This document shows, piece by piece, positions 28,637-28,749 of a DNA stretch of 64,000 bases. A program made the translations under genes and the position numbers. Numbering within the stretch: the first letter of the stretch is position 1; each line of letters opens with the position of its first letter. Under the pieces are notes generated by a model that was not told the origin of the DNA, did not search any database, and was given only the letters and a program-made list of their open reading frames with translations. This stretch comes from Kiloniella majae (GTDB lineage: Bacteria > Pseudomonadota > Alphaproteobacteria > Kiloniellales > Kiloniellaceae), in NCBI RefSeq assembly GCF_002118315.1, contig NZ_MTSZ01000003.1, positions 186,001 to 250,000 on the forward strand, in the 5' to 3' direction.

Positions 28637-28749
28637 GACTCCTCTTGACTCGAGTCCCCTATCTTGAGTCACTGTGGAGTCGCGGTCAAGTATTTTTTAC
28701 GCGAAGAGTCAAGTAAAGAGTCATTGGAGTCAGTCGTTTAGCTCGAGTC
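28637..28749 (-). promoter_or_regulatory. Cluster of nine GANTC sites at the ccrM promoter
   Basis: GANTC occurs at 28637, 28647, 28652, 28666, 28677, 28706, 28718, 28727 and 28745 (start positions). Eight begin in the 100-bp gap before ccrM and one lies in the rnhB end. Two abut to form the palindrome GACTCGAGTC (28647-28656). One overlaps the AGGAG ribosome site. The chance density is about one per 256 bp. It is a strong candidate for methylation feedback on ccrM. Confidence 0.85.

Follow-up and report, generated by a model that had tools for sequence, protein, structure and literature searches.

The window that we analyzed, a stretch of 64,000 nucleotides from Kiloniella majae (contig NZ_MTSZ01000003.1), carries on its minus strand ccrM, a gene for an adenine DNA methyltransferase (27559..28629, GTG start), which lies downstream of rnhB (28730..29377, same strand), encoding ribonuclease HII, and is separated from it by a gap of 100 bp (28630-28729). 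We assigned rnhB with NCBIfam model NF000595 (E 1e-69; 234 bits, over the cut-off of 167) and ccrM with NF050803, which matched over positions 3-350 of 350 (E 5e-191) with a score of 634 bits; this falls short of the model's curated cut-off of 830, which was likewise passed by no match in 14 control genomes, Caulobacter among them. Judged by its family membership, the ccrM product presumably recognizes GANTC. By its sequence, GAGGAG at 28639..28644 (minus strand) resembles a Shine-Dalgarno element for ccrM.

Nine GANTC sites occupy 113 bp at the rnhB-ccrM junction, each at exactly the coordinate given in an earlier, sequence-only reading of this DNA, and, as that reading had it, eight of them start within the 100-bp gap. 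We numbered them in the direction of ccrM, all on the minus strand, with offsets from the GTG: site 1 (28745..28749; -120) lies within the 3' end of rnhB, site 2 (28727..28731; -102) overlaps the rnhB stop codon, and sites 3 (28718..28722; -93) and 4 (28706..28710; -81) follow in the gap, as do site 5, or site B (28677..28681; -52), site 6, or site C (28666..28670; -41), site 7 (28652..28656; -27) and site 8 (28647..28651; -22). Sites 7 and 8 adjoin and form the palindrome GACTCGAGTC at 28647-28656, and site 9 (28637..28641; -12) overlaps the ribosome site, both as first noted. GACTCGAGTC occurs at this single place in the genome. Moreover, the centre base is S (GACTC or GAGTC) in all nine sites, compared to 320 of 1,409 GANTC elsewhere in the genome sample. 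We also note that CTCGAG is common to two stretches of the array, and that GGACUC and GAGUCU in the ccrM leader (28639-28656) could pair across the ribosome site. A hairpin over this site appears in the predicted fold of the leader RNA; however, the fold was no more stable than those of shuffled sequences (z of +1.4 for the window and +0.3 for L088).

The array stands out against a genome that is poor in GANTC. The window holds 123 sites, compared to a shuffled mean of 250, and a sample of 1,183,441 bases of the genome holds 1,418 (~1.2/kb), with 1.13/kb inside crude ORFs and, counting the array, 1.64/kb in gaps. Thus, the 1 per 256 bp that had been taken as the expected density is too high for this genome and understates the excess; at the window's own density, the Poisson probability of at least nine sites in 113 bp is ~2e-12. 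A count over the sample found no intergenic region of equal density: the densest other 125-bp stretch has at most three sites in 800 kb of contig C1 and at most four in the other sampled stretches, and among 963 gaps defined by crude ORFs a single one exceeds the ccrM gap in number (11 in 1,552 bp, L173, compared to 8 in 100 bp). In the course of this count, we noted that GANTC is at ~0.9/kb on C1:1-800000 (L114-L153), dipping to 3 sites in the 20 kb of C1:500001-520000, where we found no parS-like patterns that could mark an origin; in the sampled stretches of C22 (L154-L163), of G+C similar to C1, it ranges from 1.35 to 3.05/kb.

We examined the array in nine genomes of the genus, the window's own and eight others that we found, and all nine sites are at identical offsets from the ccrM GTG in 9/9. 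Across the 122 columns of the alignment, none of the 45 site columns varies, compared to 23 of the 77 others; in the intergenic part alone the figures are 0/39 and 19/62 (Fisher P 4e-5). The array region is free of indels while other bases change, and the centre base, which is free in GANTC, is likewise invariant at every site. Among the genomes of the order that we looked at, only this genus has the nine-site array. Loss of the cluster in relatives, which the sequence-only reading had named as evidence against its interpretation, is not what we see: 3-5 sites per 130 bp are retained in the 13 other members of the family.

Comparison of ccrM upstreams revealed a core within the array, TTGAC-N3-GANTC-N6-GANTC-A-NNN-T, from which we infer a promoter whose 17-bp spacer holds one GANTC (site B) and whose -10 element takes its first base from the last base of the other (site C), so that two of the nine sites fall in the predicted core promoter. 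Aligned to its relatives, the window reads TTGACC-GC-GACTC-CACAGT-GACTC-AAGAT, which gives a predicted -35 element TTGACC at 28684..28689, whose TTGAC keeps a constant spacing to site C across relatives, and a predicted -10 element CAAGAT at 28661..28666, in line with the CANNNT pattern of the aligned promoters (both minus strand). Transcription would start 7 nt downstream of this -10 element, at 28654 (about +/-2; minus strand), at site 7, leaving a leader of ~25 nt. TTGAC-N14-GANTC occurs in 145 of 215 ccrM upstreams (145/214 without the invalid row L052), and in these 145 aligned promoters the base after site C is always A (1.00) and the fifth base after it is T at a frequency of 0.99, a context that fits a sigma70-type promoter with a CANNNT -10 element at a 17-base spacer. 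Site C is fixed at N14, whereas site B slides between TTGAC and site C and is most often, in 120/215 upstreams, at its position here, TTGAC-N3-GANTC. The core is found in none of 216 sequences (duplicates included) of the first 400 bases of the ccrM gene.

The core reaches well beyond the genus. TTG-N16-GANTC-A-NNN-T is present in 9/9 genus, 13/13 other family and 24/28 other order upstreams, the core being missing in 4/28 of the latter, and in 63/79 named upstreams (63/78 valid ones, with L052 out), these coming from 56/68 Rhodobacterales, 4/6 Rhodospirillales, 1/2 Hyphomicrobiales and 2/3 unplaced genomes; L052, whose upstream is unusable, is tallied among the loci without the core, including in this Rhodobacterales-heavy named set. 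In a class sample, the same pattern occurs in 15/26 best matches and in 22/60 upstreams picked one per family. This sample comprises 88 upstreams, or 86 after deduplication, drawn from the 163 genomes, of 193 searched, that gave a match; it was made up of 28 best matches and 60 hand-picked upstreams, one per further family, with the lowest-scoring families omitted, and thus leans to better matches. The relaxed core is found in 41 of the 86 upstreams, compared to 0/86 on the reverse strand and a mean of 0.27 in base shuffles, and the strict core in 34/86, compared to none in either control. It is missing in its relaxed form from 45/86, and thus the core is dispensable for ccrM regulation in general. 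A tree of CcrM N-termini labeled for the core required 24 changes among the class rows, compared to a shuffled-label mean of 28.5 and a lowest value of 23; the label is therefore spread almost at random over the tree, which hardly helps to tell loss from gain. In these counts L201 and L212, duplicates of L180 and L185, were dropped from the class figures and kept in the site-spacing tallies (101/137), L044 (40 bp of upstream) was dropped, L012 (an N in the core) was counted as none, and L108 and L052 stand outside the trees. Offsets are approximate for distant loci, as homology to the window's CcrM was used to place the start codons.

Dense arrays, of 6-9 sites, recur in other families as well. 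At least six GANTC per 125 bp are present in 20/206 upstreams from beyond the genus (L052 among the 206), with nine between -209 and -97 at L249, from another family; L222, L225, L247 and L272 have eight each in their 400 bp. The count at L254, one of the 20, is inflated, being due largely to a repeat of the GATTCGGGCATCACC type that probably belongs to the coding sequence for the CcrM N-terminus; seven GATTC follow one another in it every 15 bases, from -111 to -17 of the homology-placed start. In bins of 20 bases along the 41 core-bearing class upstreams, GANTC is at 0-5/kb from 200 to 101 bases before TTGAC, rises to 13-46/kb over the last 100 bases ahead of it, reaches 87/kb in the bin of the core, and falls to 11/kb one bin on and 2-10/kb later downstream. 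The class sample thus shows a concentration of sites between about -100 and +40 relative to the core; in the named set, density is high only in the two bins from -20 to +20, besides 15/kb at +120. From the frequency of dense upstreams and these profiles, we conclude that arrays are recurrent but not universal. The array at this ccrM gene is an expansion around an older core promoter.

We noted two features of other ccrM loci. In 19 of the 41 core-bearing class upstreams (L214, L220, L228, L229, L236, L244, L246 and L261 among those with an early in-frame ATG), the -10 element is followed within 5-14 bases by the first ATG, which is in frame with ccrM, with the frame open; the ccrM mRNA there may therefore be leaderless or nearly so, and the protein may have a longer N-terminus. 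Furthermore, a DnaA-box-like TTNTCCACA lies within 400 bp upstream of ccrM at 14/79 named loci (e.g., L003, L023 and L059), in some of them close to the predicted start.

Within the scope of our searches, the architecture is specific to ccrM. In the 1.18-Mb sample of this genome, TTGAC-N14-GANTC occurs three times and is followed by A-NNN-T only at ccrM, while the looser TTG-N16-GANTC-A-NNN-T occurs at four non-ccrM places, none of them with TTGAC. Similarly, a sequence-only model (R1), built from 13 promoters of the order, matched the 4.38-Mb genome once, at ccrM (E 4e-10), when 150 of the 673 candidates from the first look were scored. A search with R1 of 59 genomes of the order, in which 85 first-look candidates were scored per genome under stricter filters and which includes the 13 promoters that built the model, gave matches at E <=0.001 in 49, each just upstream of ccrM (positions compared by eye); the best match away from ccrM in the 59 genomes had an E of 0.011. 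We had considered that the core might be a general promoter type of this genome, and this is not supported, since within the sample the full architecture was met only at ccrM.

We asked how the core relates to GcrA and CtrA. GcrA is encoded in this genome, and the TTGAC-N3-GANTC of the window places a GANTC between the -35 and -10 elements, a feature of GcrA promoters. Across the class, however, GcrA (PF07750) was detected in 29/41 genomes with the relaxed core and 38/45 without it (Fisher P 0.19, the direction being opposite to that expected of a partner), and in 25/34 and 42/52 genomes, respectively, by the strict core (P 0.44). No PF07750 match over the cut-off, with E up to 10, was obtained in 12 core genomes (9 with the strict core), five of which gave sub-threshold matches (best E 0.067); absence here is judged by one Pfam model, which a divergent GcrA could escape, in assemblies that are at least 95% complete and not all closed. 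Thus, the tie to GcrA that had been suggested is unsupported as a requirement. The extended GcrA motif of Caulobacter, YGAKTCK, for which Brevundimonas shows no such preference (PMC7987155), fits one of the nine array sites and neither core site. The CtrA box, searched as the exact pattern TTAA-N6/7-TTAA, the form used in PMC4287350, was found in 0/9 genus, 0/13 other family and 1/28 other order upstreams. In passing, we note a tandem pair, GAGTCGAGTC, upstream of gcrA in this genome; it lies at L112:1901-1910, 113 bp ahead of that gene's ATG at L112:1788 (minus strand).

The packing of the enzyme's presumed target sites into its promoter, in a layout that recurs across the class, suggests that CcrM switches its own gene. 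We think it most likely, on the pattern of sites and its conservation, that CcrM controls its own gene by methylating the ccrM promoter. In the specific form that we favor, with a probability of roughly 0.55, the cluster is a methylation-gated, self-regulating promoter that is on when hemimethylated and off when fully methylated. We infer methylation of these sites in this organism, as well as an effect of it on promoter activity. The core would be a sigma70-type promoter (TTGAC, 17-bp spacer, CANNNT) with one GANTC in the spacer and one fused to the -10 element, surrounded in this genus by seven further sites. Passage of the replication fork over ccrM would leave the sites hemimethylated and the promoter at its peak activity; the CcrM then made would remethylate the genome, its own promoter included, and as the fully methylated core would be a poor promoter, CcrM synthesis would stop. 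The outcome would be a self-limiting pulse of CcrM coupled to replication, with a response that the extra sites may make sharper or longer. The sign is probably as given, because full methylation as the off state closes a stable loop and has a precedent at the Agrobacterium gcrA promoter; by analogy with the spacer GANTC of Caulobacter promoters and the activation of methylated promoters by GcrA, it could be the opposite. Of the strong feedback switch proposed in the sequence-only reading, then, a selected, ccrM-specific and probably methylation-sensing promoter is well supported by the invariance in the genus, the core in the class and the single genomic match, and the link to GcrA is the part that is unsupported as a requirement. 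More tentatively, and with rather less confidence than doubt, we suggest that the ancestral alphaproteobacterial ccrM promoter was a gate intrinsic to RNA polymerase, at which m6A in the -10-fused and spacer GANTC would alter opening by sigma70 with neither CtrA nor GcrA, giving the self-limiting, replication-coupled pulse, and which lineages would have expanded repeatedly to arrays of 6-9 sites.

The opposite sign is the substance of an unlikely alternative that we nevertheless take seriously, a positive loop in which CcrM methylates the spacer and -10 sites and GcrA with sigma70-RNA polymerase binds the methylated promoter and increases the expression of ccrM, so that the switch becomes bistable or sharper. 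The presence of GcrA here and in 29 of the 41 core genomes would allow such a loop, and studies of Caulobacter describe GcrA as bringing polymerase to methylated promoters (PMC7403470) and a spacer GANTC as accompanying activation at 40-60 min (PMC4287350). Set against it are the lack of association between core and GcrA, the 12 core genomes without a PF07750 match over the cut-off, the poor fit to YGAKTCK and the restriction of the architecture in this genome to ccrM. The S centre of all nine sites, which CcrM specificity does not demand, may mean that another reader is involved, such that a SeqA-like or MucR-like protein recognizing hemimethylated or S-centred GANTC sequesters or represses ccrM. 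We consider this improbable as an account of the cluster, even though several sites are spaced near one helical turn, GANTC is enriched upstream of the -35 element in the class sample and Caulobacter MucR is reported to shield GANTC sites (PMC5172544). Among the named loci, most of them from Rhodobacterales, 51/56 have GAATC as the spacer site and 39/42 scored have GATTC as the upstream site; given this predominance, an S centre is not a class-wide need.

Methylation would be irrelevant if an ordinary transcription factor read a TGACTCA-like sequence, a view to which the strong fixed context TGACTCANNNT at site C lends something. We think this quite improbable: GANTC is kept at site B although its centre and position vary, the arrays of separate families differ in spacing and share the same GANTC unit, and the A and T of CANNNT are accounted for by the -10 element. 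As for chance, or a local history of mutation or repeats, to which the CTCGAG shared by two stretches of the array might point, we find it hardly credible and reject a chance origin of the array, given the Poisson probability, the retention of the sites without indels in nine genus genomes while other bases change, and the recurrence of the core across the class. We therefore retain the methylation-gated promoter as our main reading and consider how it compares with known systems.

Methyltransferases of restriction-modification systems autoregulate their own genes through their own target sites. The promoter here resembles them in that the methyltransferase would control its own gene via its own targets, and differs in that the loop would be tied to replication; CcrM is described as a solitary methyltransferase (PMC11514494). 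The comparison with Caulobacter drawn in the sequence-only reading, in which a pair of GANTC sites at the ccrM promoter affects it through methylation, holds in part: as far as the available text goes, that promoter carries GANTC and is described as 'most probably' methylation-sensitive (PMC3973325), and it is transcribed from the hemimethylated chromosome, under CtrA (PMC2217572). By comparison with that description, the promoter here has no TTAA-N6/7-TTAA (9/9 genus upstreams), a GANTC fused to the -10 element and nine sites. GcrA is a sigma70 cofactor that activates methylated promoters in Caulobacter (PMC7403470), and the GcrA-linked methylated promoters, such as ctrA P1, likewise have GANTC within the -35/-10 region (PMC4287350); in contrast to these, here a second GANTC overlaps the -10 element, and the arrangement was found only at ccrM in this genome and its order and persists in genomes without detectable GcrA. 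The gcrA promoter of Agrobacterium tumefaciens is similarly dense, with 6 GANTC in 250 bp, and methylation lowers its activity, also in E. coli (PMC11514494); unlike it, the promoter here belongs to the methyltransferase's own gene, making the loop direct, has nine sites in 113 bp and contains a position-locked core. GANTC sites ahead of cell-cycle genes have been tallied in a comparative study, which, in the part available, does not derive control from them (PMC2877005). In the open-access literature, where most subscription papers are missing, we met no description of a core fused to the -10 element or of an array of nine sites in a CcrM-sensitive promoter, and novelty is unproven at this literature scope.

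If our reading is true, a compact promoter with the enzyme's own recognition sequence inside its -10 element would serve as a simple timer coupled to replication. The finding bears on how CcrM is timed where ccrM lacks a CtrA box. Furthermore, the presence of the core in 41 of 86 class upstreams, some of them in genomes without detectable GcrA, suggests that direct control of polymerase by methylation may predate the GcrA route or be separate from it.
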